A DNA stretch of 64,000 nucleotides from Gluconacetobacter tumulisoli (GTDB lineage Bacteria > Pseudomonadota > Alphaproteobacteria > Acetobacterales > Acetobacteraceae), in NCBI RefSeq assembly GCF_014174155.1, contig NZ_JABEQM010000001.1, positions 62,001 to 126,000 of the forward strand, written 5' to 3'. Below, piece by piece: positions 42,991-62,018 of this stretch (position 1 is the first letter of the stretch; each line of letters opens with the position of its first letter). Made by a program: the position numbers and the translations under genes. A model generated the notes under the pieces. The model was given only the letters and a program-made list of their open reading frames with translations, was not told the DNA's origin and did no database searches.

Positions 42991-43262
42991 GTTCCTGTCC
43001 TCGTCTGCTGCCATGGTCGTGGGATGGACCATGGGGCCTGCACCGCATCCACGCATCCCGTTTCCTGCGCTGGAATTCCCTTGCCCCCCGGGGCGGGTCC
43101 GGCGGGGACGATCCAGGGAATATATGTTCAAACAATGGGCAGATGAACGAAAAATAGACGAATTCGCCCGATTTCTCCCCGCAATGGTACCAAGCGTCAT
43201 CGTTGTCCATGCCGGCCTCGCCCCTCTAGGATCGGCTACGTAACAGACGGGGAACCGGGTCC

Positions 43263-45539
43263 GTGCTGCTGATTGATCCTGCCGAACGGGTATTTTTCGA
43301 CCGACTGGTCGTGGCGGGCGGCCACCACCGGTTCCTGGGCGTGCGCGCGGGCGACAGGGTCGAGGTCGTCAATCGGGACGGAGGGCAGCCCGGCCTTCTG
43401 CTGGCCGCCCCCGACATGGTTTCCATCGACGGGACGGCGACGGACGTCCCGCCGTCCGGCGGCCTGGCCGATGCCCTGGCGGATGCCCGCGCCGCCTGGG
43501 ACCGTGCCATCGGCGGGACGGCCGGCGGCGCCTGCGTCGGACATGTCCTGTTTGCCGACGACGCCCCGGAAGGGGCCACGGCGGTGCTGCATGTCGCGCG
43601 GGCGGGCACCTTGCTGCTGGCGGCGCCGGGGGGGCGGATGGAACCCGGCCAGAACAGCCCGCCCACGGCGCTGGACGTGACACTCCACGGCGCCGGCCCG
43701 GCAGGCGACCGCCTGCCAGACCCGCTGGCCCCGCCGCTGGAGGACGTGCGCGTACCGGCTGCCAGCGCACGGGCGTTTCGTGTCCGCAAGGGCGATTATA
43801 TCCAGATCATCGACGTCGCCGGCCGGCAATGTTCCGATTTCCTGGCGTTCGACGCCGCCGCCCTGGCGGAGGGCGAGGAGTTTGGCCTGGACGCCACCGC
43901 GACGCGGACGGTGATGGGCCTGGCGATGCCTCTGCCTGGCCTGCATGCCAAATTTCTCGACGCGCGGCTGCGCCCGCTGGTCGAGGTCGTGCAGGATACG
44001 GTCGGCCGCCACGACGCGTTCCTGATGGCCTGCGCACCACGCTATTACGAGGACGCGGGCTATCCCGGCCATGCGAACTGCACCGACAATTTCAACGCGG
44101 CCCTGGCCGGTCACGGCATTGCGCCGCGCGCGGCATGGCCGGCGATCAATTTCTTCTACAACACCAATGTCGCGCCCTGCGGCACCATCACGATGGACGA
44201 GCCCTGGTCGCGCCCCGGCGATTATGTGCTGCTGCGCGCGCTGACCGACCTGGTCTGCGCCGCTTCGTCCTGCGCCGACGACATCGATCCTGCCAACGGA
44301 TGGCAGCCGACGGACATCCATGTGCGGATCTATGACGGACATCACGCCTTTGCCAGAGGGATCGCCCATCGCATGACCCCCGATGCCCCCCCGGTCTTTT
44401 CCCGAGAAACGGGATTTCATACGCGCACGCAGGCCCTGACGGCGCGGTTCGTCGAATATCGGGGATTCTGGCTGCCGTCCTCGTTCGACGGGTACGGGCC
44501 CGTCGCCGAATATTGGGCGTGCCGCGAACGCGCCTGCGTCATGGACCTGTCGGCCCTGCGCAAGTTCGAGATCGTCGGCCCGGACGCCGAGGCGCTGATG
44601 CAGTACGCCGTCACCCGCGACATGCGCAAGCTGGCGGTCGGACAGGTGGTCTATACCGCCATGTGCTACCCCCACGGCGGCATGCTGGACGACGGCACCG
44701 TGTTCCGGATGGGGCCGCAGGCGTTCCGCTGGGTCTGCGGGGACGATTTCTGCGGCCAGTGGTTGCGCGACCTGGCACGCGCGCGGGGGCTGGCGGCGAC
44801 CGTGCGGTCCTCGACCGACCAGTTGCACAACCTGGCCGTCCAGGGACCGAAAAGCCGCGAGATCCTGTCGGGCCTGATCTGGACCCCGCCGCACCAGACC
44901 GCGCTGGCCGACCTGAAATGGTTCCGCTTCACCATCGGGCGGATCGGCGATGCCCAGGGCATTCCGGTCCTGGTATCGCGGACGGGCTATACCGGCGAAC
45001 TGGGATATGAAATCTGGTGCCATCCCGACCATGCGCCCGCCGTATGGGACGCCGTATGGGCGGCCGGTCAGCCGCACGGCCTGGCCCCGATCGGGCTGGA
45101 CGCGCTGGACTGGCTGCGGATCGAGGCCGGGCTGGTCTTCGCGCAGTACGAATTCTGCTCGGAAACCGATCCGTTCGAGGCCGGGATCGGCTTCACCGTC
45201 CCCGCCGCCAAGGACGAGGCCTATGTCGGGCAGGATATCCTGCGCCAGCGGCGCGAGGCCCCGCGCCGTCGCCTGGTCGGGCTGGATGTTGCGGGCAACG
45301 AAACGGTGGGCCATGGCGACCCGGTCTATGTCGGTCGTGCCCGCGTCGGCGTGGTGACCAGCGCCACGCGCTCGCCGATCCTGAAACGGACCATCGCCCT
45401 GGCGCAACTGGATGCCGGGATCGCCACCGTCGGCCAGGCGGTTGAAATCGGCAAGCTGGACGGCCAGCAGAAACGCATCGCGGCCCAGGTGGCCCCGTTC
45501 CCCGCCTACGACCCGCAGAAGACCCGGGTCCGATCCTGA
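43263..45539 (+). CDS. tdm: Trimethylamine N-oxide demethylase (DUF1989-GcvT fusion)
   Basis: 758 residues from a GTG start. The middle (about 175-370) is a DUF1989 domain with conserved Cys in GRQCSDFLAFD, GHANCTDNFN and VAPCGTITMDEPW; from about 385 it is a GcvT/aminomethyltransferase domain (YTGELGYEIWCHPDH, GLDALDWLRIEAGL). This order and length match Tdm of Methylocella silvestris and marine roseobacters, which splits trimethylamine N-oxide into dimethylamine and formaldehyde, the latter caught on tetrahydrofolate. The following gene is tmm, as in those organisms. Confidence 0.85.
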   Translation: MLLIDPAERVFFDRLVVAGGHHRFLGVRAGDRVEVVNRDGGQPGLLLAAPDMVSIDGTATDVPPSGGLADALADARAAWDRAIGGTAGGACVGHVLFADDAPEGATAVLHVARAGTLLLAAPGGRMEPGQNSPPTALDVTLHGAGPAGDRLPDPLAPPLEDVRVPAASARAFRVRKGDYIQIIDVAGRQCSDFLAFDAAALAEGEEFGLDATATRTVMGLAMPLPGLHAKFLDARLRPLVEVVQDTVGRHDAFLMACAPRYYEDAGYPGHANCTDNFNAALAGHGIAPRAAWPAINFFYNTNVAPCGTITMDEPWSRPGDYVLLRALTDLVCAASSCADDIDPANGWQPTDIHVRIYDGHHAFARGIAHRMTPDAPPVFSRETGFHTRTQALTARFVEYRGFWLPSSFDGYGPVAEYWACRERACVMDLSALRKFEIVGPDAEALMQYAVTRDMRKLAVGQVVYTAMCYPHGGMLDDGTVFRMGPQAFRWVCGDDFCGQWLRDLARARGLAATVRSSTDQLHNLAVQGPKSREILSGLIWTPPHQTALADLKWFRFTIGRIGDAQGIPVLVSRTGYTGELGYEIWCHPDHAPAVWDAVWAAGQPHGLAPIGLDALDWLRIEAGLVFAQYEFCSETDPFEAGIGFTVPAAKDEAYVGQDILRQRREAPRRRLVGLDVAGNETVGHGDPVYVGRARVGVVTSATRSPILKRTIALAQLDAGIATVGQAVEIGKLDGQQKRIAAQVAPFPAYDPQKTRVRS

Positions 45540-45561
45540 AAGGCCGTTTGCAGATGTGGTC

Positions 45562-45610
45562 CGGTGGCGATCCGACGCGCGTTTCCTGCGCTCCGGCGCT
45601 CACGGCTGTC
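45562..45610 (+). repeat. Short intergenic repeat, family A copy 3
   Basis: The 14-mer GGCGATCCGACGCG at 45566-45579, with a flank (TTTCCTGCGCTCCGGCGCTC) that aligns to the copy near 34100. It lies between tdm and tmm. Confidence 0.6.
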
Positions 45611-45647
45611 AGGGCCGATCTCGCTCACCAGCCCATATTTTCAAACA

Positions 45648-45660
45648 GCATTCTGAATGC
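45648..45660. promoter_or_regulatory. Palindrome upstream of tmm
   Basis: GCATTC-T-GAATGC, perfect 6-bp arms, 33 bp before the tmm start in the A/T-rich end of the gap. It could be an operator for a small-molecule regulator of tmm. Confidence 0.35.
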
Positions 45661-45693
45661 CTCATTTCTTATTGTGAACGGAAGGAATAACCC

Positions 45694-47049
45694 ATGACCA
45701 AGCGCGTTGCGATCATCGGTGCCGGGCCCAGCGGTCTTGCCGCCTTGCGGGCCTTCGAATCCGCCCGGCAGAAGGGGGCCGAGATTCCCGAAATCGTGTG
45801 CTTCGAAAAGCAGGACGATTGGGGCGGGTTGTGGAACTACACCTGGCGCACCGGGCTGGATGAGCATGGCGAGCCCGTCCATGGCAGCATGTATCGCTTC
45901 CTGTGGTCGAACGGCCCCAAGGAATGCCTGGAATTTGCCGATTATTCCTTCGAGGAACATTTCGGCCGTCCCATTCCCTCCTACCCGCCGCGCGCGGTCC
46001 TGTACGATTACATCACCGGGCGGATCAGCAAGGGGGGGCTGCGCGACTATATCCGTTTCCGCTGCCCGGTTCGCGGGGTGGAATGGAAGAGCGACCTCGA
46101 CAAATTCCGCGTCACGGTCGAGGACCTGACGAAAAGCCACGTCTATTCCGAGCTGTTCGACGACGTCATCGTCGCGTCGGGACATTTCTCGGTGCCGAAC
46201 GTTCCGGACTTCCCGGGCTTCCAGTCCTTCCCCGGACGAATCCTGCACGCGCACGATTTCCGCGACGCCAACGAATTCGCCGGCAAGGACGTCCTGCTGG
46301 TCGGCAGCTCCTATTCCGCCGAGGATATCGGGACGCAATGCTATAAGTACGGCGCCAAGTCGGTCACGTTCTCCTATCGCAGCCGCCCGATGGGGTTCGA
46401 ATGGCCCGAAGGGTTCGTGGAACATCCGCTGTTGCAGAAGGTCGAGGGCAAGACCGCCTATTTCAGCGACGGCGCGACCCGCGACGTCGATGCCATCGTC
46501 CTGTGCACCGGATACCGGCACCATTTCCCGTTCCTGCCGGACGACCTGCGGCTGCAGACGAACAACCGTCTCTACCCGCTGGGCCTTTACAAGGGGGTGT
46601 GCTGGATCGCCAATCCGCGCCTGTTCTATCTGGGCATGCAGGACCAGTACTACACGTTCAACATGTTCGACGCCCAGGCCTGGTACGCGCGCGACGTCAT
46701 CATGGGACGCATCACCCTGCCGACGTCCGAGGCGATGACCGAGGACACGCTGCTGTGGCGGCGCAAGGAAGAGGCCGCCGCGAACCCGTACGAGGAAATC
46801 GATTTCCAGACGGAATATGTGCGCGACCTGATCGAGCGGACGGATTACCCGGCCTTCGACCTCGATCATGTCGCCGACGCCTTCAAGGAATGGAAGCACG
46901 ACAAGGCCGAGGGCATCCTGACCTATCGCGACCGGTCCTACGTCTCGGCCCTGACCGGGAAGCGGGCGCCCGTCCACCATACGGTGTGGATGGAGGCATT
47001 GGACGATTCGCTGGAGGCATTCCTGAAAAGCGGCGAACCGGAGGGGTAA
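45694..47049 (+). CDS. tmm: Trimethylamine monooxygenase
   Basis: 451 residues. It is very similar to characterised bacterial Tmm along its length: [21 protein letters not shown] (FAD), [62 protein letters not shown] (NADPH) and [20 protein letters not shown]. It oxidises trimethylamine to its N-oxide with NADPH and oxygen and may also act on dimethyl sulfide or other amines. It lies 154 bp after tdm. Confidence 0.92.
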
Positions 47050-47062
47050 GTTTCCGCAAGGA

Positions 47063-47170
47063 CGCTGCCCTTGCACCCCGCCAGAGGGCATGTCCCTCTG
47101 GAAACCCCGGACGTCAGGACTCTACGAAACGAACCGGGCAAGGGCCGAGGCCCTTGCCCGGTTCAGGCGG
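47063..47170 (+). repeat. Composite intergenic repeat, family B copy 3, with terminator-like hairpins
   Basis: Module 1 includes CCAGAGGG-CATGT-CCCTCTGG (47081-47101). Module 2 ends in a 14-bp perfect stem AACCGGGCAAGGGC / GCCCTTGCCCGGTT (47132-47163). It sits between the convergent tmm and MFS genes and may act as a two-way terminator, though it has no T-tract. Related copies are at 33049, 38031 and 58390. Confidence 0.65.
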
Positions 47171-47193
47171 CGCCCGACCACACATGCGCCCGA

Positions 47194-48549
47194 CTATACG
47201 TGCGACAGGGCGTCCCCCGCTGCACCCTGCCGGAACCGATGGATCCGGTAGGAAAACAGCAGCAACAGCAGCAGATAGACGACCGATCCGAACCCGACGT
47301 TCAGATTCACTGCCGATGCCATCGCCGCATGGGCCGGGACATGTCGCGCCGTCATCGCGATCAGCGTGGGCGCCAGCGCGCCGGGCAGGCTCAGGCAGAT
47401 GAATTGCAGCGCGAACATCCGGCCCATGAACCGTCCTGGCGTCACGGACGCGATCGCCACGTAATAGGACGCGTTGATCGTGCCCTGGAAGACGTACATC
47501 AGGCTGATCAGGCTGAAGACCTGCCAGGGCGGATAGACATGCAGGATGGCCGTCTGGAAAAAGGCCATCAGTGCGCTGGCGACGATCGACACGCGGATGG
47601 CCACGTCGCGGATGCCCCGTGACGACAGGGCGTCGACCAGCCAGCCACCGCCCAGCGTGCCGGCGATGCTCATGACGATGCCCAGCAGGCCGATCATGTG
47701 GCCGACATCGGCCTCCGGAATCTTCCAGCTTTCGGTCAGGACCGTCGGCGTCCACAGGTAGCCCGCGTTGGGAATGGACCAGACGATGCTGTAGGCGAAG
47801 GACGGCCAGTACAGCCACCAATAGGACCGGATAAAGCGCACCGTGTCGCCCAGCGTCGCCCCGGCCGTCGCGGCACGGGCCTCGCGCGCGGGTTCGCGGA
47901 TCAGCAGGATCACGAACGCCAGCGGCAGCGTGCACATGCCCGGCAGCCCCAGCACGATCTGCCAGGGAAGAAAGCGCCCCACCACCGGCCAGGCGCGGAA
48001 GAACCCGCTGTCCGCCAGGCGGATCAGGCTGCCGCTGAGATAGAAGCTGATGCCGTTGCCCAGCGAAAAGCTGCCCCAGTACAGGCTGAACGGCAGGCCG
48101 CGTCGTTCGGGCGGGAAGACGTCGCGCAGGATCGACTGCGATCCGGGCTTCAGGATCGCGTCGGCGGCGGCCGAACCGCTGCGGGCGAACAGCAGGCGCC
48201 AGAACCCGTTGGCGATGCCGTTCATGAACGACATGCCCGACCAGACCAGCGCCATGCCGAACAGCAGGCGCTTGCGGCTGACGGAATCGACCAGCAGTCC
48301 CGCCGGCAGCAGGAGCAGGCTGGTGATCGCGGTGCTGGCGAAGCCGAGGATGAAGCTGACCTCGACATGGGTCAGGGACAGGTCGTGCCGGATGCGGTCG
48401 ATCACCAGGCTCAACCCGCCCTCGTCGATGGAATCGAGCATGGAAAACAGGCACAGCACGCACAGGATGCTGTAGGGGTGGCCGGCCAGGCCAGGCCGGT
48501 CGGTGGCGGCCGGCCCGACGGCCCGATGCTCCTCCGGCCGGGCGGTCAA
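47194..48549 (-). CDS. Major facilitator superfamily transporter
   Basis: 451 residues from a TTG start that overlaps the upstream small gene (TTGA). About 12 membrane segments are visible, with an MFS loop region LLVDSVSRKRLLFG and an embedded charged early motif LDSIDEGGLSLVIDRI. It is the last gene of the carnitine operon and is a good candidate importer for carnitine, betaine or an acylated precursor, although carnitine carriers are usually BCCT or ABC type. Confidence 0.82.
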   Translation of the reverse strand: MTARPEEHRAVGPAATDRPGLAGHPYSILCVLCLFSMLDSIDEGGLSLVIDRIRHDLSLTHVEVSFILGFASTAITSLLLLPAGLLVDSVSRKRLLFGMALVWSGMSFMNGIANGFWRLLFARSGSAAADAILKPGSQSILRDVFPPERRGLPFSLYWGSFSLGNGISFYLSGSLIRLADSGFFRAWPVVGRFLPWQIVLGLPGMCTLPLAFVILLIREPAREARAATAGATLGDTVRFIRSYWWLYWPSFAYSIVWSIPNAGYLWTPTVLTESWKIPEADVGHMIGLLGIVMSIAGTLGGGWLVDALSSRGIRDVAIRVSIVASALMAFFQTAILHVYPPWQVFSLISLMYVFQGTINASYYVAIASVTPGRFMGRMFALQFICLSLPGALAPTLIAMTARHVPAHAAMASAVNLNVGFGSVVYLLLLLLFSYRIHRFRQGAAGDALSHV

Positions 48550-48740
48550 TCCGTCAGCGTCGATGTCCGCGCCTCCGCGCCCGCCCCGGCCGAGGCGACG
48601 TCCATCGTGTCATGCACGCCCAGCGGCAACATCGTCATGACCGAGATCATGGCCACCAGCAGGACGACCACCAGCACTTCCGCCTTGCCTAGGACGGTCC
48701 TGGGGAAAACGGTTCGGGAAACAGGCGGTGCGTTCTTCAT
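48546..48740 (-). CDS. Small single-pass membrane protein, unrecognised
   Basis: 64 residues from the ATG at 48740. One hydrophobic helix is clear (KAEVLVVVLLVAMISVMTML), flanked by a basic N-terminus and an Ala/Thr-rich tail. It lies 31 bp after the Rieske gene, and its stop overlaps the MFS start by 4 nt (TTGA). The tight coupling suggests a transporter accessory subunit or a small coupled leader peptide. I know of no family. Confidence 0.6.
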   Translation of the reverse strand: MKNAPPVSRTVFPRTVLGKAEVLVVVLLVAMISVMTMLPLGVHDTMDVASAGAGAEARTSTLTD

Positions 48741-48771
48741 GCGACGGATTTCATGCGACGGCACCTCCGCC

Positions 48772-49881
48772 TCACAGGCCCAGCCGGTCGACCACCAGCT
48801 TGTGGAAGGCATGAATACCGACTTCGGTGGTTTCACATCCTTCGGCGTCATAGATGATACGGCCGGAATCATACCCGATCGACGCCAGGCCCCGGTGGAC
48901 GGATTCGCATAGGGCGCGGTCCTCGATCCCGGTCATCGCCCCGAAAATCGCGCCGCGTGGCCGTGTCAGATCCGTTCCGGGCTTGCGATACAGGTCGACA
49001 TGGCCGGCAAGGGAGCGGTCCACCCCGTCCGGCGTGGTGAACGGGCCGATGGAAAAGGCGAAATCGTCCGCGTCGTCGATCACGCTGATCGTGGTGGTGG
49101 GGAACAGCCACCAGAACCGCACCTTCCTGCCGTCGCGGGTCAGGCCCTTCTGCGTCGACCATTCGCCGGAGGCGTAGGTGCGATAGGTCTTCATGTCGAC
49201 GATGTCGCAGAAGCCGGGGTGCGACGGGCGGCAGTGATTGCATTCCAGGAAGTTGTCGACCACGATCTTCCAGTTCGCCTGGCAGGGAAACATGGTGGGA
49301 ACGCTGCCGTCCTGCTGCACCGGGCCGGACTGCGTGCGGACCAGGGTCTTCAGTTCCGGGATTTCGGCCACCACGTCGGCCATCAGATCGCCGACCAGTT
49401 CGCCCAGCGGGACGGCGTTCATGTCGAGGTTGAAGAACACGAACATGTCCGCGAACAGCTCGACCCGGATCGGGCGCAGATCGAATTGCGCGGCGTTGAA
49501 ATTGGCCAGGCGTTCCGCCCCGCGCGCGTTGCGCAGATGCCCGTCCAGCCGGTACACCCAGGCGTGGTACGGGCAGGAAATCGTATTGACGTGCCCGCAT
49601 CCGGACAGAAGCTGATGCCCGCGATGCTGGCAGACATTGTGGAACCCGCGCAGGTTGCCGTCCTGGTCGCGCAGGATGATGACGCTCTGGTCCAGGACGT
49701 TCGCGGTGATGTAGTCGCCCGGCGCCTTCAGGTCGCCGACCCATCCGGCATATTGCCAGGAACGGAAGAAGATCTCGTTCCGTTCGCGTTCATAGATTTC
49801 GGGATTGCGATAGACCCAGCCCGGCAGGCTGTTGGAATCGGCGGGATCGGACGTGACCTTGATCTTCGCAAGTTCATTCAT
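48772..49881 (-). CDS. Rieske oxygenase for a quaternary ammonium compound (CntA/GbcA-like)
   Basis: 369 residues from MNELAKIKVTSD. The Rieske ligands are Cys84, His86, Cys103 and His106. The mononuclear iron site is in DNFLECNHCRPSHPGF with His216 and His221, and the Asp in IEDRALCESVHRG is likely the third ligand. Glu213 replaces the bridging Asp of most Rieske oxygenases, a mark of enzymes acting on carnitine, glycine betaine or stachydrine. Length and motif order are nearest to CntA, which releases trimethylamine from carnitine, but its operon with betaine-producing genes would also fit glycine betaine demethylation. The reductase is not in the window. Confidence 0.83.
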   Translation of the reverse strand: MNELAKIKVTSDPADSNSLPGWVYRNPEIYERERNEIFFRSWQYAGWVGDLKAPGDYITANVLDQSVIILRDQDGNLRGFHNVCQHRGHQLLSGCGHVNTISCPYHAWVYRLDGHLRNARGAERLANFNAAQFDLRPIRVELFADMFVFFNLDMNAVPLGELVGDLMADVVAEIPELKTLVRTQSGPVQQDGSVPTMFPCQANWKIVVDNFLECNHCRPSHPGFCDIVDMKTYRTYASGEWSTQKGLTRDGRKVRFWWLFPTTTISVIDDADDFAFSIGPFTTPDGVDRSLAGHVDLYRKPGTDLTRPRGAIFGAMTGIEDRALCESVHRGLASIGYDSGRIIYDAEGCETTEVGIHAFHKLVVDRLGL

Positions 49882-49953
49882 GGCGGTGTGGCCCCGGATT
49901 GCGGCAGAAGCGTCGCATGACGTTTCGCGCCGATGCAATGAAATTGTGCCTGA

Positions 49954-49986
49954 AAATCATATTTTTTTATTCTTGAACGATGATTT
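49954..49986. promoter_or_regulatory. Interrupted dyad upstream of the Rieske gene
   Basis: AAATCAT and ATGATTT separated by 19 A/T-rich bases, between the esterase stop and the Rieske start. It may be a regulatory site or a weak hairpin. Confidence 0.3.
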
Positions 49987-49992
49987 GATGGA

Positions 49993-50931
49993 TCACGGCG
50001 CCAGCAGGAAGCTGTCGATCGTGTCCGCGACCGCGCGGGGCTTCTCCCAGAACGGATTGTGGCCCAGGCCGGGGAAGATCGCGCGCTTGGCCTGCGGCAG
50101 GGCGTCGATCAGCGTCTGCCGGACCTCGGGCAGCATGATCGGGTCCTTCTCGCCCCAGATCAGCAGGGTCGGCGCGCGCAGGCGTGGCAGGCCGGCCTGG
50201 ATGTTCGTACTGGCCAGCCCCTGGTCCAGGATCGCCAGCCAGACCTTGGCCGGGATGCGGGCGGCGTCTTCGCGCTGGCGCGCCAGGAATGCGGGGTCGA
50301 CCGGCGTCGGCGACGACCACCATTCCTTCATGAATGCGGACTCGGGATCGATCGGGTCGCGCAGGGCCAGGATCGGTGTGCGGAAATCCATGCCCGTCTG
50401 CCGGTTCCGTCGTTCGGCGGCCGTGGGGCAGGGCTTTTCGCCCCCCGTCGAGGAAATCAGCACCACCTTGCCGGTACGCTCGGGCCAGGTCTCGGCAAAG
50501 GATTGCGCGACGATGCTGCCAAGCGAATGTCCGACGATATCCGCCCGCGAAACATGCAGGCGATCCATCAGTCTTTTCAGATCGTACGCGAAATCCACGA
50601 CGGTGTAGCAGCATTCCGGCTTGGACGATCCGCCATGTCCGCGCAGGTCGGGGATGATCAGGCGCAGGCGTGGCGACAGGTCGGACACGATCGGCAGCCA
50701 GTCGCGCGCACTGTCGGTGTAGCCATGGATCAGGATGACCGGAATGCCGTCGCGCGGCCCCATGTCGATGACGGACATCGTCATGCCGTCGTCCAGCTTT
50801 ACGGCCTGCTTGCGTCCGTCGAACCGCGCGATGGCGGCGGCGTCCAGCGGGGCGGCATGCGCGATCGCCGGCAGGGCGGCCATCGCCATCGCGGCCAGCA
50901 GGCATCGGGCATGTCGTGCATATCGGCCCAT
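49993..50931 (-). CDS. Periplasmic alpha/beta hydrolase, HocS-like acylcarnitine esterase
   Basis: 312 residues from the ATG at 50931, giving a clean signal peptide (CLLAAMAMAALPAIAHA). The nucleophile is Ser136 in IVGHSLGSI; HGYTDS forms the oxyanion region and GLGHNPFWE holds the catalytic His. In Pseudomonas aeruginosa the carnitine operon ends with hocS, a hydrolase needed for short-chain acylcarnitines; the position after cdhC and cdhA here is the same. The exact substrate is inference from that synteny. Confidence 0.75.
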   Translation of the reverse strand: MGRYARHARCLLAAMAMAALPAIAHAAPLDAAAIARFDGRKQAVKLDDGMTMSVIDMGPRDGIPVILIHGYTDSARDWLPIVSDLSPRLRLIIPDLRGHGGSSKPECCYTVVDFAYDLKRLMDRLHVSRADIVGHSLGSIVAQSFAETWPERTGKVVLISSTGGEKPCPTAAERRNRQTGMDFRTPILALRDPIDPESAFMKEWWSSPTPVDPAFLARQREDAARIPAKVWLAILDQGLASTNIQAGLPRLRAPTLLIWGEKDPIMLPEVRQTLIDALPQAKRAIFPGLGHNPFWEKPRAVADTIDSFLLAP

Positions 50932-51000
50932 GGCGGTCTCCGCGCGATAGGGGGGCGGACATGGGCCATCAGGCCGCATGGCCCATGTCCGGCCCCGGGG

Positions 51001-52512
51001 TCAGGGGGTTTTCGGGCGGATGCCGATGCTGCCACCGGCGGCGGCCGGGCGCGGCAGCGCCGCATGCGCGTCCCCGATCGCCGCGACGGCCGCCTGCACA
51101 TCCGGCAGGATCGGGGCGCTGGCGCCCTTCTGCGCGTCGACATGGATCAGCATATGTTCCGATGTCGCCACCGTCGTTCCGTCGGCGCCGGTCATGGTAT
51201 GGAACAGATGCAGACGCTTGGCGTCATGGCCCAGGATCTGCGATCGGACCCGGATCGCGTCGCCGGCATGGACCTGGCCCAGGTGACGGATATGGCTTTC
51301 GACGGTGTAGAAGCTGTGGCCCGCCCGGACGTACGCGTCGCCCGCGCCGATCAGGGCCAGCACGTGGTCCGTAGCCTCGCCGAACACCTGCAGATAGCGA
51401 TGCTCTGTCATATGCCCGTTATAATCGATCCATTCGTCCAGGACGTGGCCCTGGTACGACACGATCAGGCCGTCGGGGTCGGGCGTGGAGGCATCCGCAA
51501 GGGCGCGCGCGGCGCGGAAATCATTCAGGGTCCGGCCTGCCGCGTACCCGTCCGGCCCGACCTGCGACAGGGCGTTCAGGATGCGGACCAGCGCGTCGTC
51601 GCGCAGGGCCTCCAGCGTGCGGATCGACGTGCCGGCGGCCTGTTCGTCGGACTGCGTGGCGATCCGGTCGATCAGCGCGTCGGTCAGTTCGGGCGCCACC
51701 AGCTTCGTCCAGGGCAGTTTCAGCGCCGGTCCGAACTGATGCAGGAAATGCCGCATGCCGTCGTCGCCGCCGGCCAGGCGATAGGTCAGGAAAGTGCCCA
51801 TGAACGCCCAGCGCAGCCCTGCGCTGTAGCGGATGGCGTCGTCCAGCTCCGACGTCGTGGCGACGCCTTCCTCGATCAGCCACAGCCCCTCGCGCCACAG
51901 GGCCTCCAGCAGGCGGTCGGCGATGAAGCCGTCGACTTCCTTGCGCACGCGCAGCACCTGCATGCCGATGCGCGTATAGAACGCGGCGGCGCGGTCCCTG
52001 GTGGCGTCCGTCGTCTGGTCGCCGCCGCAGATTTCGACCAGCGGCAGCAGATAGACCGGGTTGAACGGATGGCCGACCACCAGCCGGCCGGGATGGCGCA
52101 TGTCGGCCTGCAACCGGCTGGGCAGCAGGCCGGACGTCGACGACCCGATGATCGTGTCCGCCGGCGCCGCGGCGTCGATCTGCGCCAGTACGTTACGTTT
52201 CAGCGTCTCGATTTCCGGCAGGCTTTCCTGCACGAAATCCGCGTCGCGCACCGCGTCGGCCAGGGTCGGCGCGAAAACCAGATGTCCTTCCGCCACGCTG
52301 CTGCCGGGATACAGCCGCGCCCACGCCTTCCGCGCCATGGCCAGGACGGCGTGCGCCCGGTCCCGGGCGCTGTCGCTGGGGTCGTAGAACGCGACGTCGA
52401 TGCCGTTCAGCAGGAAGCGTGCGGCCCATCCCGCGCCGATCACCCCGCCGCCGACGACGGCGGCGCGCCGGATGCCTGCCGCGCCGTGGCCGTCTATCGT
52501 GTCATGCGTCAT
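51001..52512 (-). CDS. cdhA: L-carnitine dehydrogenase fused to betainyl-CoA thioesterase
   Basis: 503 residues. The N-terminal part (1-320) is a 3-hydroxyacyl-CoA dehydrogenase-type enzyme with AAVVGGGVIGAGWAARF (NAD) and VVGHPFNPVYLLPLVEI. From about 345 there is a hot-dog thioesterase (LDEWIDYNGHMTEHRYLQVF). The first domain oxidises carnitine to 3-dehydrocarnitine, and the second should release glycine betaine from betainyl-CoA. In Pseudomonas these are separate genes cdhA and cdhB; fusions are known in rhizobia. It starts 3 bp after cdhC. Confidence 0.9.
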   Translation of the reverse strand: MTHDTIDGHGAAGIRRAAVVGGGVIGAGWAARFLLNGIDVAFYDPSDSARDRAHAVLAMARKAWARLYPGSSVAEGHLVFAPTLADAVRDADFVQESLPEIETLKRNVLAQIDAAAPADTIIGSSTSGLLPSRLQADMRHPGRLVVGHPFNPVYLLPLVEICGGDQTTDATRDRAAAFYTRIGMQVLRVRKEVDGFIADRLLEALWREGLWLIEEGVATTSELDDAIRYSAGLRWAFMGTFLTYRLAGGDDGMRHFLHQFGPALKLPWTKLVAPELTDALIDRIATQSDEQAAGTSIRTLEALRDDALVRILNALSQVGPDGYAAGRTLNDFRAARALADASTPDPDGLIVSYQGHVLDEWIDYNGHMTEHRYLQVFGEATDHVLALIGAGDAYVRAGHSFYTVESHIRHLGQVHAGDAIRVRSQILGHDAKRLHLFHTMTGADGTTVATSEHMLIHVDAQKGASAPILPDVQAAVAAIGDAHAALPRPAAAGGSIGIRPKTP

Positions 52513-52515
52513 GGT

Positions 52516-53409
52516 TCAGCCCCGCTTGACCAGTTTCAGGTGGGCGCGGACCTCCTGCGGCGTCATGATCGCGACGTTCATCGCCTCCAGCGTCGTGACG
52601 GCACGGCTCACCAGGTCCGCATTGCTGGCGAACTGTCCGCGCGACAGATACAGATTGTCCTCCAGGCCCACGCGGATGTTGTGGCCGATCATCGGCGCCA
52701 GGCCGACATAGGGCAGCTGATGGCGGCCCAGCGAAAACGCGCTGTAGATCGTGCCCGGGGGCAGCTGGTTGACCATCGACAGCAGGGTCAGGACGTCGTC
52801 GGGCGCGCCGTAAGGCACCCCCATGCACAGCTGGATCATCAGCGGCGCGTCCAGCAATCCTTCCTTCAGCAGGTCCTTGACGAACACCAGATGGCCGGTA
52901 TCGAAGACCTCCAGTTCCGGCCGGACGCCCAGCGCCTGCACCTGCGCCGCCATGGCGCGCAGCTGCGACGGCGTATTGACCATGATGTAGTCGCCCAGCG
53001 AGAAATTCATGCTGCCGCAATCCAGCGTGCAGATCTCGGGCAGCAGTTCGGCGACATGCGCCAGCCGTTCTGTCGGGCCCACCAGGTCGGTCGACCCGGC
53101 CACCGGCGGCAACGGCGTTTCGCCGGGTTGCAGGACCAGGTCGCCACCCATGCCGGCCGTCAGGTTGATCACGACGTCGGTGTCCGAATCCCGGATCCGC
53201 TCGACGACCTCGCGATACAGCGCGATGTCGCGGGCGGCGGCGCCGGTCTTCGGATCGCGGACATGGATATGGGCGATGGCGGCCCCGGCCTTGGCGGCCG
53301 CGATGGCGGCGTCGGCGATCTGCTTCGGCGTGATCGGCAGGTCGGGATGGCGCGACGCCGTGTCGCCGGACCCGGTGACGGCGCAGGTGATGAACAGTTT
53401 CGAGGTCAT
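52516..53409 (-). CDS. cdhC: Dehydrocarnitine cleavage enzyme (BKACE family)
   Basis: 297 residues, beta-keto acid cleavage (DUF849) family. The zinc ligands are His47 and His49 in IAHIHVRDP, with the conserved Glu region PGLQPGETP-like (LQPGETPLP) and the C-terminal VGLEDNLYLSRG. It condenses 3-dehydrocarnitine with acetyl-CoA to give betainyl-CoA and acetoacetate. It heads the leftward operon and faces cdhR across a 153-bp gap, as in Pseudomonas. Confidence 0.9.
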   Translation of the reverse strand: MTSKLFITCAVTGSGDTASRHPDLPITPKQIADAAIAAAKAGAAIAHIHVRDPKTGAAARDIALYREVVERIRDSDTDVVINLTAGMGGDLVLQPGETPLPPVAGSTDLVGPTERLAHVAELLPEICTLDCGSMNFSLGDYIMVNTPSQLRAMAAQVQALGVRPELEVFDTGHLVFVKDLLKEGLLDAPLMIQLCMGVPYGAPDDVLTLLSMVNQLPPGTIYSAFSLGRHQLPYVGLAPMIGHNIRVGLEDNLYLSRGQFASNADLVSRAVTTLEAMNVAIMTPQEVRAHLKLVKRG

Positions 53410-53516
53410 GATGGCTGCTCGGACTCCGGCCAGAGCCGCGACCTGTCAGGCCACCCTGGCCTGGTCGCGACGGGATGACCGGCAGCGTAGGGCCGTGTGG
53501 TCGGGGCAGGTGTGCC

Positions 53517-53543
53517 GAAAACCGGCATTGATGTGCCGTTTTG
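53517..53543. promoter_or_regulatory. Candidate operator between cdhC and cdhR
   Basis: GAAAACCGGCA and TGCCGTTTT form an imperfect dyad (one-base bulge) around TTGATG, in the shared control region. CdhR binding here would control both directions. Confidence 0.45.
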
Positions 53544-53562
53544 CGTCTGCTTGACTGCCGGC

Positions 53563-54504
53563 ATGGTCGTGCGCATCGGATTCCTGCTGATCCCCCGCTT
53601 TTCGGCGCTGGGCTTTCTGTGCGCGGCCGAACCGTTGCGCGTCGCCAACCGCCTGGCCGAGGAAAAGCTGTTCGAATGGACGGTATTTTCCGAGGACGGC
53701 CGCCCGGTTGCGGCATCGAACGGGATGCAGGTCGCGGCCGACGCACCGCTGGGGCCGGAGGCGGCCCTCGACAGCCTGATCGTCGTGGCGGGGTTCGAGC
53801 CGCTGAAGCAGATTTCCTCCGCCCTACCGCGCCTGTTGCGGAGGCTGGCGGCACGGCGGATCGAAATCGGGGCGCTGGATACCGGGGCGTTCGTCCTGGC
53901 CCAGGCGCGGCTGGTCGATCAGGTGCCGGTCACCATGCATTGGGAAGTCTGCGCCGCCTTTGCCGAGGCCTTTCCCGACCTCACGCCCTCGACCGAATTG
54001 TTCGAGGACCACGGGCGCATCTTCACCAGCGCGGGGGGGACGGCATCGATCGATCTGATGCTGCATCGCATCGGCCGCCTGCACGGTCCCCGCCTGGCCC
54101 GCCGCGTGGCGGAGCAGTTCATTCATTCCGCGATCCGCCTGCCCGGCGAACCGCAGCGCCGCCGCGCGCCGCGCGATGCGCCGGCCGGCGGCCGAACGCT
54201 GGCGCGCCTGACGGCCTGGATGGAAAGCGTGGCCGACCGGCGCGTGACGCCCGGGGAACTTGCGGACCTGGCCCGTCGCTCCCCCCGTCATGTCGAACGG
54301 CTGTTCCGCCGGCATTACGGCTGGGGACCGGCGACCCATCACCGCAAGCTGCGCCTGGCGCGGGCACGGACCCTGCTGCGGGAAACCGCCCTGTCGATCG
54401 TGGATATCGCCGACGCGTGCGGTTTCGAAAGCCGATCGAATTTCTCGCGTGCCTATCGGGCGGAATTCGGAATCGCGCCGGCACGGGATCGCGTGGAGCC
54501 GTGA
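53563..54504 (+). CDS. cdhR: AraC-family carnitine catabolism regulator (CdhR-like)
   Basis: 313 residues from MVVRIGFLLIPRFSALGFL. An N-terminal DJ-1/PfpI-like domain (about 1-190) is followed by two AraC helix-turn-helix motifs (VTPGELADLARRSPRHVERLF and SIVDIADACGFESRSNFSRAYR). This is the GlxA-type architecture of CdhR and GbdR, which sense carnitine or betaine. It is divergent from cdhC, exactly as cdhR lies in Pseudomonas. The upstream open frame to 53497 is not family-like. Confidence 0.85.
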   Translation: MVVRIGFLLIPRFSALGFLCAAEPLRVANRLAEEKLFEWTVFSEDGRPVAASNGMQVAADAPLGPEAALDSLIVVAGFEPLKQISSALPRLLRRLAARRIEIGALDTGAFVLAQARLVDQVPVTMHWEVCAAFAEAFPDLTPSTELFEDHGRIFTSAGGTASIDLMLHRIGRLHGPRLARRVAEQFIHSAIRLPGEPQRRRAPRDAPAGGRTLARLTAWMESVADRRVTPGELADLARRSPRHVERLFRRHYGWGPATHHRKLRLARARTLLRETALSIVDIADACGFESRSNFSRAYRAEFGIAPARDRVEP

Positions 54505-54782
54505 AGGTGACGCGGGCTTCGGCCGGACCCGCCCGGCCGCCGACCGTCATGCCCGAAATGATATGATGGGTCAGCAGCTCATACTGGAATGTGTTGGTAT
54601 GAATGAAGCCGCCCGCCAGGCCGCCGCCTGCGCAACCTTGCTGGAGTTGTGCACGGCATCCACGCCGTCTTCGTACCTGCGTGTCGGGTCGTCGAACGTA
54701 TCGTTCCCATGCCAGATGCCGTCGACTTCCACGTTTTCCCGATGGCGCCAGGCGGCTCGGCACCTGTCAGCCAAAGACAATG
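54505..54782. other. Non-coding gap after cdhR
   Basis: I see no gene here. Short open frames exist on both strands but have no ribosome site or family resemblance. The right part leads into the A/T-rich operator region of the next gene. Confidence 0.4.
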
Positions 54783-54811
54783 TTTTCTCTATGAGAAAAT
54801 ATTGTTCTCAT
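54783..54811. promoter_or_regulatory. Overlapping dyads upstream of the flavin oxidoreductase gene
   Basis: TTTTCTC-TAT-GAGAAAA (54783-54799) overlaps ATGAGAA-N7-TTCTCAT (54791-54811), so three alternating TTCTC/GAGAA half-sites share the central one. TTGACG lies just downstream at 54815-54820 as a possible -35 element. The arrangement looks like a regulator site at the promoter of the operon that follows. Confidence 0.5.
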
Positions 54812-54893
54812 TAATTGACGATTTTGACGTGCCGCTGGTAGGCTGGCGAAGCATGCAGGGCCGGGACGTCGGTCCGGCCGCGGGGGAGCCAGG

Positions 54894-56849
54894 ATGACAC
54901 AGGCGTTTTCGCATCTGTTCGCGCCCTTGCGCATCCGTGACGTGGTCCTGAAGAACCGGATCATGTCCACCGGGCATGACACGACGATGCCGACCGATGG
55001 CCGGGTCAACGACACGCTGGTGGCGTATCACGAGGCCCGGGCGCGTGGGGGCGTCGGGCTGATCGTGGTGCAGGTCGCGGGCGTGCATGAAACCGCGCGC
55101 TATACCTCGCATATGCTGATGGCCACCGACGACGGGTGCATCGACGGCTATCGCCGGCTGGCCGAGACCTGCCATGCCCATGGCTGCGCCGTCTTCGGGC
55201 AGCTGTTCCATCCTGGCCGGGAGATCATGGAATCGGCCGACGGCCTGCTGGCCGTCGCCTATGCGCCCTCGGTCGTGCCCAGCGACCGGTTCCGCGTCAT
55301 GCCGCGCGCGCTCGATCCCGAACTGATCGCCGAGATCGTCGCGGGCTACGGCGCGGCCGCCGAACGGCTGTGCCGGGCGGGCCTGGACGGGGTGGAATTC
55401 GTCGCCAGCCATGGCTACCTGCCGGCGCAGTTCCTCAATCCCCGCGTCAACCTGCGTGACGACGCCTATGGCGGCACGCCGGACAACCGGCTGCGCTTCG
55501 CGCGTGAGGCGCTGGCCGAGATGCGGCGGCGTACGCATGACGGCTTCGTCATCGGCATGCGCATCAGCGGCAGCGAGCGGGACGAGGACGGGCTGACCGG
55601 TGACGAGGTGCTGGCGGCCTGCCGCGATCTGGAACCGTTGCTGGATTATGTGAACGTCACGGCCGGCACGTCCGCATCCTATGGCGGCGCGGTGCATATC
55701 GTGCCGCCGATGTCCTATAGGCCCGGCTATGTCGCGCCCGATGCGGTGCCGATCCGCGCGGCGCTGGATATCCCCGTCTTCGTCAACGGCCGGGTCAACC
55801 AGCCGCAGGAGGCGGAGAAGATCCTGGAATCGGGCGCCGCCGACATGTGCGGCATGACGCGGGCGATGATCTGTGACCCCGAAATGCCGGCGAAGACGGC
55901 GCTGGGACGGCTGGACGATATCCGGGCCTGCATCGGCTGCAACCAGGCCTGTATCGGGCATTTCCATCGCGGCCTGCCGATTTCTTGCATCCAGCATCCC
56001 GAAACCGGGCGCGAACGCCAGTATGGCCGCGTCGCGCCCGCCGACGCGCCGCGCCGGGTGATGGTCGTGGGCGGGGGCCCGGCCGGGATGAAGGCCGCGA
56101 TCACCGCCGCCCGGCGCGGACATGACGTGACGCTGTACGAGGCCGGGCCCCGGCTGGGCGGGCAGGCGCTGCTGGCCCAGTTGCTGCCGCGCCGGGCCGA
56201 ATTCGGCGGCCTGGTGACCAATCTGGCGCACGAACTGTCGCGCAGCGGCGCGCGGGTCGTGACCGGCGTGCGCGTCGATGCGGATCTGATCCGGCAGGAA
56301 CGGCCGGACAGCCTGATCCTGGCATCCGGCGCGCGCCCCTATGTCCCGCCCGGCGCCGAGGGCGCGGACATGCAGGTCGTGGACGCCTGGCAGGTGCTGC
56401 GCAATGCGGTTCCCGTCGGCGCGCGGGTGCTGGTGGTCGATTGGCGCGGCGACTGGATCGCCCCCGGCGTGGCCGAGTCCCTGGCCCTGGCGGGGCGGCA
56501 GGTGCGCCTGGCAACCAGCGGCCACCATCCGGGCGAACAGCTTCCGTTCTACGTCCGTGACGATACGATCGGCGAACTGTACCGGCTGGAGATCGACATC
56601 ACGCCGATGGTGCGCTTCTATGGCTGCGATGGATCGACCGTGTTCCTGCAACATGCGGTGACGGGCGCGCCGGTGGTGGTCGAGGGGATCGACACGCTGG
56701 TGCTGGCCTGCGGCCATGTGCCGGAAACGGAGCTGGAGCGGGTGGCGCGGGAACTGGTGGCGGATGTCCGGATGGCCGGGGACTGCCTGGCCCCCCGCAC
56801 GGCGGAGGAAGCGGTCATGGACGGGCTGCGGGCGGGCTGGGACATCTAG
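54894..56849 (+). CDS. Old-yellow-enzyme type flavoprotein, DgcA/trimethylamine dehydrogenase-like
   Basis: 651 residues. An FMN barrel (1-340, LFAPLRIRDVVLKNRIMSTGHDT; catalytic-type GVEFVASHGYLPAQFLNPRVN) is followed by a 4Fe-4S motif (CIGCNQACIGH ... SCIQ, spacing C-x2-C-x3-C) and a C-terminal FAD/NAD Rossmann part (RVMVVGGGPAGMKAAITAARRGHDVTLYE). Relatives demethylate dimethylglycine (DgcA), proline betaine (StcD) or trimethylamine/dimethylamine. Here it could oxidise dimethylamine from Tdm or dimethylglycine from betaine. GGGGGAG precedes the start. Confidence 0.8.
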   Translation: MTQAFSHLFAPLRIRDVVLKNRIMSTGHDTTMPTDGRVNDTLVAYHEARARGGVGLIVVQVAGVHETARYTSHMLMATDDGCIDGYRRLAETCHAHGCAVFGQLFHPGREIMESADGLLAVAYAPSVVPSDRFRVMPRALDPELIAEIVAGYGAAAERLCRAGLDGVEFVASHGYLPAQFLNPRVNLRDDAYGGTPDNRLRFAREALAEMRRRTHDGFVIGMRISGSERDEDGLTGDEVLAACRDLEPLLDYVNVTAGTSASYGGAVHIVPPMSYRPGYVAPDAVPIRAALDIPVFVNGRVNQPQEAEKILESGAADMCGMTRAMICDPEMPAKTALGRLDDIRACIGCNQACIGHFHRGLPISCIQHPETGRERQYGRVAPADAPRRVMVVGGGPAGMKAAITAARRGHDVTLYEAGPRLGGQALLAQLLPRRAEFGGLVTNLAHELSRSGARVVTGVRVDADLIRQERPDSLILASGARPYVPPGAEGADMQVVDAWQVLRNAVPVGARVLVVDWRGDWIAPGVAESLALAGRQVRLATSGHHPGEQLPFYVRDDTIGELYRLEIDITPMVRFYGCDGSTVFLQHAVTGAPVVVEGIDTLVLACGHVPETELERVARELVADVRMAGDCLAPRTAEEAVMDGLRAGWDI

Positions 56850-56931
56850 GCAGTACGCCGCGACTGGAATGGTTCGAGGCGTGTCCGTCGTCCGCGCAGG
56901 GTCAGGAAACCGTTTCCAGGGAGGCAGCATC

Positions 56932-58374
56932 GTGACAGCCCATACCGCCACCGGCTTCGTCCGGTCCCTGCGCTGGAGCGACGGCGTGATGCTGGCGATC
57001 GGCACGCCGGTGACCACCTTCTGCCTGATCGGATTGGAAATCGGGCCGATCGGGGCATGGGGCGCGCTGGCGGTCTGGTGCGTCACCAGCCTGGTCGCGC
57101 TGGTCCAGAACCTGATCTATGCCGAACTGGCGCTGCTGCTGCCCGACCGGTCGGGCGGGATCGGCGTCTTCGCGCATGAGGCCTGGCGGCGATACGCCAC
57201 CCCGCTGGGGGCGCTGGCCGTCTTCGGCTACTGGGCCGGCTGGTCGGTGACGCTGGCGGTCTGCGGGTTGCAGGTGGGGCGGCTGACGCAGGCCGAATGG
57301 TTTCCGTCCTGGACCGGGACGATATCGCTGGGCGGCGGCGCGGTCGGCTTGCCGCACGTCATCGCCGCGGCGATGATCCTGCTGGTCTATGTGCTGAACG
57401 TGCGGGGTATCGCCCTGGTGGCCCGCATCAATCGTATCGTCAGCGTGCTGCTGGCCCTGCTGGGCGCGGTCTGCCTGATCGGTCCGTTCTTCGTGGTGCC
57501 CATCGACCTGTCGCGCCTGCACTGGCATTTCGAGGGGACGGGCGGGCTGCCGCTGTGGCAGGCCTTCCTGGTCTGGTCCTTCATCACGTCCTGGACCAGC
57601 TACGGCACCGAACTGTGCGCGACGTTCGCGCCCGAATACCATAATCCGCGCGATCACATCCGCTGGGCCCTGGTGGTGTCGTCGCTGATCGTGATCCTGG
57701 TCGCGGTGCTCAGCTGCGTCGTCCTGCCGTCGGTGGTGGGGGAGCAGGCCATCGGCGACGATCCGATCGGGTTCTACGTCGCCGTCGTCGACCGGATCAT
57801 CGGCCACGGGCTGACCGGCGTGTTCATCGCGGTGATCTGCCTGGCGCAGTTCGTGACGATGAATTCGGCCATCGCCGGGTCCAGCCGCGCGCTGCACGGC
57901 CTGGCCGAACGGGGACTGACCGTGCGGCAGCTGGACCGGCTGAACGCGCGGGGCGTGCCGGCCCGCGCCATGGTGGTGGACCTTGTGGTCAACATCTTCA
58001 TCGTGTTCTTCATCGCCAATATCACCGGCATCATCTTCGCGGGGAATATCGGCTACATCCTGTCGGTGATCCTGGCGCTGGGCGGTTTCATGATCCTGCG
58101 GCGGCATCGGCCGGACCAGGTGCCGGCGATCTGTCGCGGGCGGATCTGGACGGGGATCGCCATCCTCCTGGTGGCCTTCAACCTGGCCATGATCGGGGTC
58201 GGCTTCCTGCATCCCGCCGCCGCCGGATATGGCGGCCATATGCAGCAGATCGTCGCCGTCGCGATCCTGGTCTGCTCGCTCCTGCTGTTTTTCTACCGGC
58301 GGGGCGTCCAGGACACGGACGGATTGCGCTTGCGCGAGGCCGATGTCCTGCCAGAGCCGGGTATCACCCGATGA
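56932..58374 (+). CDS. APC-family amine/amino acid permease
   Basis: 480 residues from a GTG start at 56932, chosen because AGGGAGG lies six bases upstream; the frame is open further left inside the preceding gene. About 12 membrane helices are visible, beginning SDGVMLAIGTPVTTFCLIGLEIGPIGAWGAL. It follows the flavoprotein by 82 bp, probably in one transcript, so an amine such as dimethylamine, sarcosine or a methylated amino acid may be the substrate. Confidence 0.83.
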   Translation: MTAHTATGFVRSLRWSDGVMLAIGTPVTTFCLIGLEIGPIGAWGALAVWCVTSLVALVQNLIYAELALLLPDRSGGIGVFAHEAWRRYATPLGALAVFGYWAGWSVTLAVCGLQVGRLTQAEWFPSWTGTISLGGGAVGLPHVIAAAMILLVYVLNVRGIALVARINRIVSVLLALLGAVCLIGPFFVVPIDLSRLHWHFEGTGGLPLWQAFLVWSFITSWTSYGTELCATFAPEYHNPRDHIRWALVVSSLIVILVAVLSCVVLPSVVGEQAIGDDPIGFYVAVVDRIIGHGLTGVFIAVICLAQFVTMNSAIAGSSRALHGLAERGLTVRQLDRLNARGVPARAMVVDLVVNIFIVFFIANITGIIFAGNIGYILSVILALGGFMILRRHRPDQVPAICRGRIWTGIAILLVAFNLAMIGVGFLHPAAAGYGGHMQQIVAVAILVCSLLLFFYRRGVQDTDGLRLREADVLPEPGITR

Positions 58375-58389
58375 GGTAGCGGGCACATT

Positions 58390-58445
58390 GGACAGGTCGG
58401 CTTCGCCCGAACCCACCAGGGCCTCAGGTCCTGGACCCCGATCAC
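58390..58445 (-). repeat. Composite intergenic repeat, family B partial copy
   Basis: On the minus strand GATCGGGGTCC and GAGGCCCTGGTGGGTTCGGG align with parts of the copies at 33100-33145 and 38031-38060. It lies between the permease and the hydrolase genes. Confidence 0.45.
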
Positions 58446-61884: not shown

Positions 61885-62018
61885 ACGGGCCGGTGCTGCC
61901 TCATGAACAGGCGCGCTTTCGACGCCCGTTTCCGACAAAGGGTGTTGTGTGGCCGGGGCCCGTGCGGCATGACGGAGCACGATCGGAAATCCACCCTTGT
62001 TTGTCAGCAGGTACTTGT

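Follow-up and report, generated by a model that had tools for sequence, protein, structure and literature searches.

A carnitine operon and a tdm-tmm gene pair lie side by side in Gluconacetobacter tumulisoli, with a group Va-type Rieske oxygenase gene between them

The window described here is a stretch of 64,000 nucleotides (positions 62,001 to 126,000 of contig NZ_JABEQM010000001.1) from the genome of Gluconacetobacter tumulisoli, which comprises 3.96 Mb in 49 contigs; all positions given are those of the window. It contains an island (Table 1) in which a tdm-tmm pair, belonging to the trimethylamine (TMA) route, lies next to a cdh-type carnitine operon, along with genes for a Rieske oxygenase, an OYE-type flavoprotein, two permeases and a second hydrolase. 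These are probably two known catabolic modules side by side, and not one demonstrated system. Genes were scored against curated family models, each with its own bit-score cut-off, and against Pfam, and were compared with those of 13 congeners and of wider sets of genomes. Gene calls in the compared genomes (designated by G numbers) are based on open frames, and every absence given is subject to the E-value limit of its search. The genes named in an earlier note on this DNA, made from the sequence letters alone, are all present as open frames where it placed them, and tdm, tmm and cdhA pass their curated equivalog cut-offs.

Table 1. Genes of the island, with window positions, strand and principal family evidence
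Feature	Position	Strand	Evidence
tdm, trimethylamine N-oxide demethylase	43263-45539	+	NF053776 1202.7 bits, cut-off 1100; DUF1989+GCV_T+GCV_T_C
tmm, trimethylamine monooxygenase (flavin-containing monooxygenase, FMO)	45694-47049	+	NF058570 842.8 bits, cut-off 675
MFS permease	47194-48549	-	PF07690 92 bits
Rieske oxygenase, group Va-type by Phe 203	48772-49938	-	probable start 49881, by eye
alpha/beta hydrolase	49993-50979	-	PF00561 114 bits
cdhA, carnitine 3-dehydrogenase, with fused cdhB-type thioesterase	51001-52512	-	NF005716 649.2 bits, cut-off 592; PF02737, PF00725, PF13279 (4HBT_2)
BKACE (cdhC), beta-keto acid cleavage enzyme	52516-53409	-	PF05853 321 bits
cdhR/GbdR-type GATase-1/AraC regulator	53497-54504	+	NF052371 256 bits, below cut-off 480; likely start near 53563
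OYE-type flavoprotein	54894-56849	+	best TIGR03997 573 bits, below cut-off 793
APC permease	about 56848-58374	+	PF13520; NF053774 143 bits, below cut-off 690
CocE/NonD-type hydrolase	58480-60666	+	TIGR00976 213 bits, cut-off 66

In the order of transcription, the minus-strand genes are those for the beta-keto acid cleavage enzyme (BKACE), CdhA, the alpha/beta hydrolase, the Rieske oxygenase and the MFS permease. The regulator gene diverges from BKACE and is followed on the plus strand by the OYE, APC permease and CocE-type hydrolase genes, while the tdm-tmm pair is convergent with the cdh operon. Judged by this anatomy, there are at least three transcription units on both strands, not a single operon. 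Scans of 43.0-58.5 kb for promoters and terminators gave nothing in excess of shuffled sequence, and only weak two- or three-copy matches were found among repeats that might bound the island.

The carnitine part follows the established cdh plan in both gene order and family models: cdhC, then cdhA and cdhB fused in one protein, then an alpha/beta hydrolase, with a divergent cdhR-type regulator. The corresponding arrangement described for Pseudomonas aeruginosa has cdhR divergent from the carnitine operon caiX-cdhCAB-hocS (PMC5806209). The BKACE scores 232 bits with the best KCE model, against a cut-off of 382, and none of its matches was specific for dehydrocarnitine; it is 76% identical to the BKACE encoded beside cdhA in Novosphingobium capsulatum. 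The same operon plan is found on a Novosphingobium plasmid, but with a hydrolase that is only 26% alike. Three congeners (G007, G008 and G011) share the gene order, with the regulator at 58-60%, BKACE at 80-82%, cdhA at 69-70% and, directly after cdhA, the hydrolase at 60-66%, split into two pieces in G007. From its position after cdhA, that of hocS, the alpha/beta hydrolase is a candidate acylcarnitine esterase; by eye its N-terminus resembles a signal peptide, and that of the CocE-type hydrolase is twin-arginine-like. The CocE-type hydrolase probably belongs to the carnitine part as well, judging by 61% relatives in two carnitine stretches. One is in G008, where an MFS permease relative (65%) also lies within about 9 kb of the operon. 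The other is in G022, where a single stretch holds cdhA, BKACE, both hydrolases (66% for the alpha/beta type), regulators and a gene of the gamma-butyrobetaine-hydroxylase type; the presence of both hydrolase types there therefore ties the two to carnitine. The earlier note's reading of a path from acylcarnitine through carnitine to glycine betaine is thus well supported, as far as family models and operon plan can predict it. Elsewhere in the host genome, on contig 4 (L256, 8020-9132), a gamma-butyrobetaine-hydroxylase-type gene with GBBH-like_N and TauD domains has an MFS transporter and a LysR regulator in its vicinity.

Within the genus, cdhA is found in five of the 14 genomes, host included, and occurs without tmm in four of the 13 congeners. 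A wider search of 200 genomes of the family (E <= 1e-60) gave a cdhA match in 55, many of them weaker and confined to the dehydrogenase part; in 14 of these, again including the host, the match is to the fused full-length protein. BKACE lies beside cdhA in 15 of 16 other family loci that were retrieved, the sixteenth being cut by a contig end. A Rieske gene follows cdhA directly in two of the 16 (28-30% identical to the island Rieske), and a partial Rieske match lies about 7 kb away in one further locus, that of G022 (L174).

The tmm product scores 717 bits to a solved bacterial FMO, and in the trees tdm and tmm each group with the copies of Acetobacter sicerae and of the congener G013 in a starred clade. 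A search at E <= 1e-120 located tmm in 11 of the 397 family genomes, one of them the host. Around tmm in seven of the ten others the fetched stretch contains a dmmA match; the remaining three are a contig of only 6.7 kb and the loci of G204 and G242, which have tmm and tdm without dmmA. G204 also has a cdhA gene, on a different contig from tmm. In A. sicerae the order is tdm-tmm-dmmD-Fer2-dmmA. No such contiguous tdm-tmm-dmm cluster was found in the host; its dmm relatives lie on contig 6 (75-76%, 56-58% and 73-74% to the copies of G318, G393 and A. sicerae), adjoining a type III glutamine synthetase (658.2 bits, cut-off 469.6) and mgs-like genes, the names gmaS and mgs resting on family plus neighbourhood. 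A third dmm subunit was not identified in the host genome. Given these relatives on contig 6 and the Acetobacter clades, the island's tdm-tmm pair looks like half of an acetic-acid-bacterial TMA cluster, cut from its other half. The dmm-like and gmaS-like genes also lend support to the use of TMA or trimethylamine N-oxide (TMAO) that the earlier note had predicted.

These two modules are not usually neighbours. The gene-order search across the Acetobacteraceae that the earlier note had proposed gave the arrangement in none of the other loci: full-length tdm or tmm is absent from all 16 other family cdhA loci, and no cdhA or BKACE match lies around tmm in the ten other genomes, the 6.7-kb contig included. 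The 80 best named tmm loci, about 10 kb being covered on both sides of tmm in 60 of them and several being cut by contig ends, contain no match to cdhA, BKACE, or the MFS, Rieske or CocE genes, while full-length tdm is present in 27. Weaker matches were met at single loci to the OYE (31%, L046), the regulator (36%, L042), the hydrolase (24%, L063) and Ada (47%, L067). Within the genus, tmm occurs in two of the 14 genomes; in the second, G013, it is accompanied by tdm, a dmmA match, an ammonium transporter and a purU-type gene. The host genome alone among the 14 has tmm, the Rieske gene and cdhA all three.

The same site in two near congeners is consistent with this. G009 aligns at 88-93% to the window at 38.1-43.08, 50.98-54.52, 56.92-58.38 and 61.9-63.06 kb and lacks 43.08-50.98 kb, which holds tdm, tmm, MFS, Rieske and hydrolase; G002 lacks everything from Ada to a remnant of the OYE. 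The APC permease is retained in both at 92-94%. With these genes missing from the site in two close congeners, and with the modules occurring apart elsewhere, the earlier note's view of both routes as a single system is not borne out. Decayed OYE remnants lie at this site in G009 (L245, 4660-4960) and in G002 (L246, 4640-4830, adjoining the region upstream of Ada), so the OYE was probably once present in both and then decayed. Insertion of the whole 43.08-50.98 kb block in this strain was considered and rejected, since the hydrolase follows cdhA in three congeners, which makes deletion the better account of why G009 lacks it. The site comparison shows neither gain nor loss for tdm-tmm and the Rieske gene. 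AlkB-type and Ada-type alkylation-repair genes (40516-43200) adjoin tdm, probably by chance, because they have the same place in G009 and G002, which are without tdm. The intergenic segments 45566-45626 and 58390-58444 match other places in G009 at 86-93% and may belong to a short interspersed repeat in this genus.

The best solved relative of the island Rieske protein is the carnitine oxygenase component CntA (190.8 bits, 34% identity), to which the tree joins it at 90/89 support, at an unstarred node. In an alignment of 20 rows, in CntA numbering, Phe203, Glu205, Cys206, Cys209, His208/His213/Asp323 and Tyr225 are all kept. An aromatic residue at 203 has been reported to mark group Va, whose substrates are carnitine, choline and benzalkonium (PMC7948474; the signature also in PMC10952381), while Asn at this position marks the demethylating group Vb, with GbcA and Stc2, and a Y203F variant was active (PMC7948474). 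The pocket residues of CntA, F258, N270, Y295, Y315 and F319, are V, S, V, F and T in the island protein, an alignment that is uncertain because identity to CntA is only 34%; CntA, YeaW and a Burkholderia relative share Phe, Asn, Tyr, Tyr and Phe there. By Phe203 the island Rieske is therefore of group Va type, with a changed pocket. If the residue signature is a guide, its likelier reaction is oxidation at the non-methyl side of a trimethylammonium compound, rather than demethylation of betaine. No reductase gene adjoins it, and neither cntB nor a malic-semialdehyde dehydrogenase gene (msadh) lies beside it, the only msadh match being one of 28% at 31.4 kb of the window; CntB relatives are present on contigs 6, 4, 9 and 5, the nearest (36-37%) on 6 and 4, that on contig 6 sitting inside the dmm-like set. 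Identity with CntA proper was accordingly rejected, the pocket residues being changed and the partner genes missing, and identity with GbcA was rejected because of Phe at 203 and a model score of 140 bits against 670, over the first 243 residues only. The earlier note's step from carnitine to TMA, which depends on this protein, thus keeps the family signature for oxidation on the non-methyl side and loses the CntA pocket and partner genes.

The gene is rare. Relatives at 46-50% occur in six other genomes among the 397 of the family, none of them adjoining cdh genes within the 9-16 kb covered around each, and nothing shared and telling was seen among the few neighbours scanned in these six neighbourhoods; it was found in one of the 14 genus genomes and, in a phylum-wide sample at E <= 1e-80, in one of 398, the host only. 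More distant Rieske proteins do occur in carnitine-like company. The layout in G205 is similar, with the order Rieske-cdhA-BKACE, a cdhR gene diverging from these, and an OYE; its Rieske has Tyr203, 29% identity and an unsure place in the tree. On plasmids of Pseudomonas, Mesorhizobium, Roseovarius and Ruegeria, a Phe203 Rieske gene lies beside BKACE and CdhA-like genes, in loci that also hold aminobutyraldehyde-type dehydrogenases and choline-related genes. Four such clusters (L203, L209, L210 and L214) consist of a GlxA regulator, the Phe203 Rieske, BKACE, an aminobutyraldehyde-type dehydrogenase and a 3-hydroxyacyl-CoA-type dehydrogenase, and choline sulfatase is present in two of the four.

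The flavoprotein had been described in the earlier note as DgcA-like or like trimethylamine dehydrogenase (TMADH). In TMADH, Cys30 is the flavin link and Y60, W264 and W355 form the bowl (positions counted on the alignment); the island protein has Asp at the Cys30 position and Val, Tyr and Phe in the bowl, and TMADH identity was rejected. As for DgcA, the OYEs of the host gbc loci (35% for the contig 5 copy) and of G205 share 35-36% identity with the island protein, and a Shinella plasmid protein outside any gbc locus shares 69%. Its relatives at 67-70% are plasmid proteins of Shinella, Roseateles, Paraburkholderia and Sinorhizobium; the two whose annotated surroundings were viewed (one Shinella, one Roseateles) have ABC transporter, FAD-binding oxidoreductase and cupin genes as neighbours. 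A 55% relative lies on plasmid pNit of Rhodococcus rhodochrous (L201) with BetT, a Va-type Rieske, a succinate-semialdehyde-type dehydrogenase and a PDR/VanB reductase. The match of the APC permease to the TMAO permease model indicates distant kinship, and several tmm loci have APC relatives (25-28%) close by.

Betaine demethylation genes are found elsewhere in the host genome. Contig 5 carries a full-length gbcA-type Rieske gene with a gbcB-type reductase, a gbdR-type regulator (329 bits, cut-off 480), an OYE and a soxA-family protein of 1002 residues (1481.7 bits, cut-off 1164); contig 9 carries a second gbcA-type gene, likewise together with an OYE. In both gbcA-type proteins the residue at CntA position 203 is Asn. 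What might have been a broken gbcB on contig 9 was discarded: the short match is an out-of-frame echo, since the gbcB frame taken from contig 5 extends at its 5' end into gbcA.

Read as two modules side by side, the genes would act as follows. Under CdhR control, one or both esterases would free carnitine from acylcarnitine; CdhA would oxidise it to 3-dehydrocarnitine, which the BKACE would convert with acetyl-CoA to betainyl-CoA and acetoacetate, and the fused thioesterase would release glycine betaine, presumably to be demethylated by the gbcA/gbcB/soxA-type genes of contig 5 and the second gbcA-type gene of contig 9. Tmm would oxidise TMA to TMAO and Tdm would split this into dimethylamine and formaldehyde, a route probably continued by the dmm-, gmaS- and mgs-like genes of contig 6. 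The Rieske protein, encoded near the end of the carnitine module, could but need not supply TMA to the tdm-tmm pair, and a TMA-releasing link between the modules is thus possible. Several points weigh against this reading. Independent modules leave a rare Rieske gene between the two unexplained, and Va-type Rieske genes turn up repeatedly next to BKACE and CdhA-like genes, which suggests that the island gene is functionally linked to the carnitine module. From the TMA genes on contig 6, the tdm-tmm pair is probably in use, so that there should be some source of TMA or TMAO. Within the locus, no transporter known to be specific for carnitine (BCCT or CaiX) was seen, and the two gbcA-type proteins, at 430 bits (contig 5) and 435 bits (contig 9), fall below the GbcA cut-off of 670.

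A linked pathway, in which the Rieske enzyme cleaves carnitine, gamma-butyrobetaine or another trimethylammonium compound to TMA for Tmm and Tdm to carry on to dimethylamine, so that carnitine is split both ways, is in our view possible but doubtful. It draws on the kept Phe203, Glu205, cysteines and His/His/Asp set, on the unstarred join to CntA and on the presence of much of the TMA route in the host, as well as on the hydrolase adjoining the Rieske gene as in the Acinetobacter baumannii cnt cluster, where an acylcarnitine hydrolase has been proposed (PMC11353897); the two hydrolases, however, gave no blastp match to each other. The altered pocket, uncertain as its alignment is, and the lack of an adjoining cntB or msadh also speak against it, as does G013, which has tmm and tdm with no match to the island Rieske (in an assembly 87% complete). 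Its more specific form is rather unlikely: that the Rieske represents a new group Va subfamily releasing TMA from a carnitine-pathway compound by means of a borrowed reductase, one locus thereby sending the carbon chain and the methylated nitrogen down two routes, with Tmm and Tdm detoxifying the TMA where it is released. The Rieske might also be a choline-type monooxygenase, or act on an unrelated quaternary amine with its position incidental. This we consider somewhat improbable: the genes of the plasmid relatives (34-36%) have aminobutyraldehyde-type dehydrogenases as neighbours, in several cases along with choline sulfatase or choline/betaine ABC genes, and the nearest relatives are away from cdh genes, but there is no aldehyde dehydrogenase in the island, the 28% msadh match lying at 31.4 kb of the window, and the gene stands in line with the cdh operon. 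A linear betaine route, with the Rieske as a non-orthologous glycine betaine oxygenase and the OYE as dimethylglycine demethylase, taking carnitine to sarcosine beside unrelated tdm and tmm, appears quite unlikely. The Rieske gene does follow genes that would make glycine betaine, G205 has a similar layout, and OYE and gbcA-type genes are paired on contigs 5 and 9; against this stand Phe where group Vb demethylases and both host gbcA-type proteins have Asn, the partial and low GbcA score, and the much closer relationship of the OYE to the Shinella protein in another setting. Side-by-side modules therefore remain the reading we prefer.

Each gene set is known and their adjacency is rare. The earlier note knew of no described system joining both routes, and no tmm/cdh locus was found in the literature either (titles and abstract openings of open-licence papers), but the idea of TMA derived from carnitine, with tmm and tdm needed downstream, is already in print at the level of organism and community (PMC6514802, PMC9999580). 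Carnitine-derived TMA was reported to inhibit growth of a Psychrobacter strain unable to use TMA (PMC6514802); an organism joining TMA release to TMAO demethylation would therefore illustrate a way around this burden. The plainer reading, too, puts into acetic acid bacteria a TMA/TMAO route that is most familiar from marine bacteria and methylotrophs, and a Rieske protein with the group Va signature and a different pocket is useful for mapping the substrate determinants of this enzyme group.

Of the known systems, the P. aeruginosa operon (PMC5806209) shares with the island the divergent GATase-1/AraC regulator and, in order, cdhC, cdhA, the cdhB function and an esterase-type gene, the hydrolase being likened to HocS by position; here cdhA and cdhB are fused, caiX is missing and the Rieske and MFS genes are added. 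The tdm-tmm order is that of A. sicerae (L037; 62% and 75% identity for tdm and tmm), and the dmm-, gmaS- and mgs-like genes of the host resemble the TMA route reported for Ruegeria and Methylocella (PMC5520151), whereas here tdm-tmm is separated from dmm and lies beside a carnitine operon. The A. baumannii locus carR-mdh-bcct-hyd-cntA-msadh-cntB (PMC11353897) also has a Va-type Rieske gene beside an alpha/beta hydrolase in a carnitine setting, but the island Rieske is 34% identical with a changed pocket, and no match to cntB, msadh, mdh or BCCT was found in the island. The plasmid clusters of Pseudomonas sp. MPC6, Mesorhizobium amorphae, Roseovarius and Ruegeria share the combination of a Phe203 Rieske, BKACE and a CdhA-like dehydrogenase, with BKACE at 30-31% (MPC6, Mesorhizobium) and the dehydrogenase at 36% (MPC6); their aldehyde dehydrogenase, short-chain dehydrogenases/reductases and choline genes have no counterpart in the G. 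tumulisoli island.

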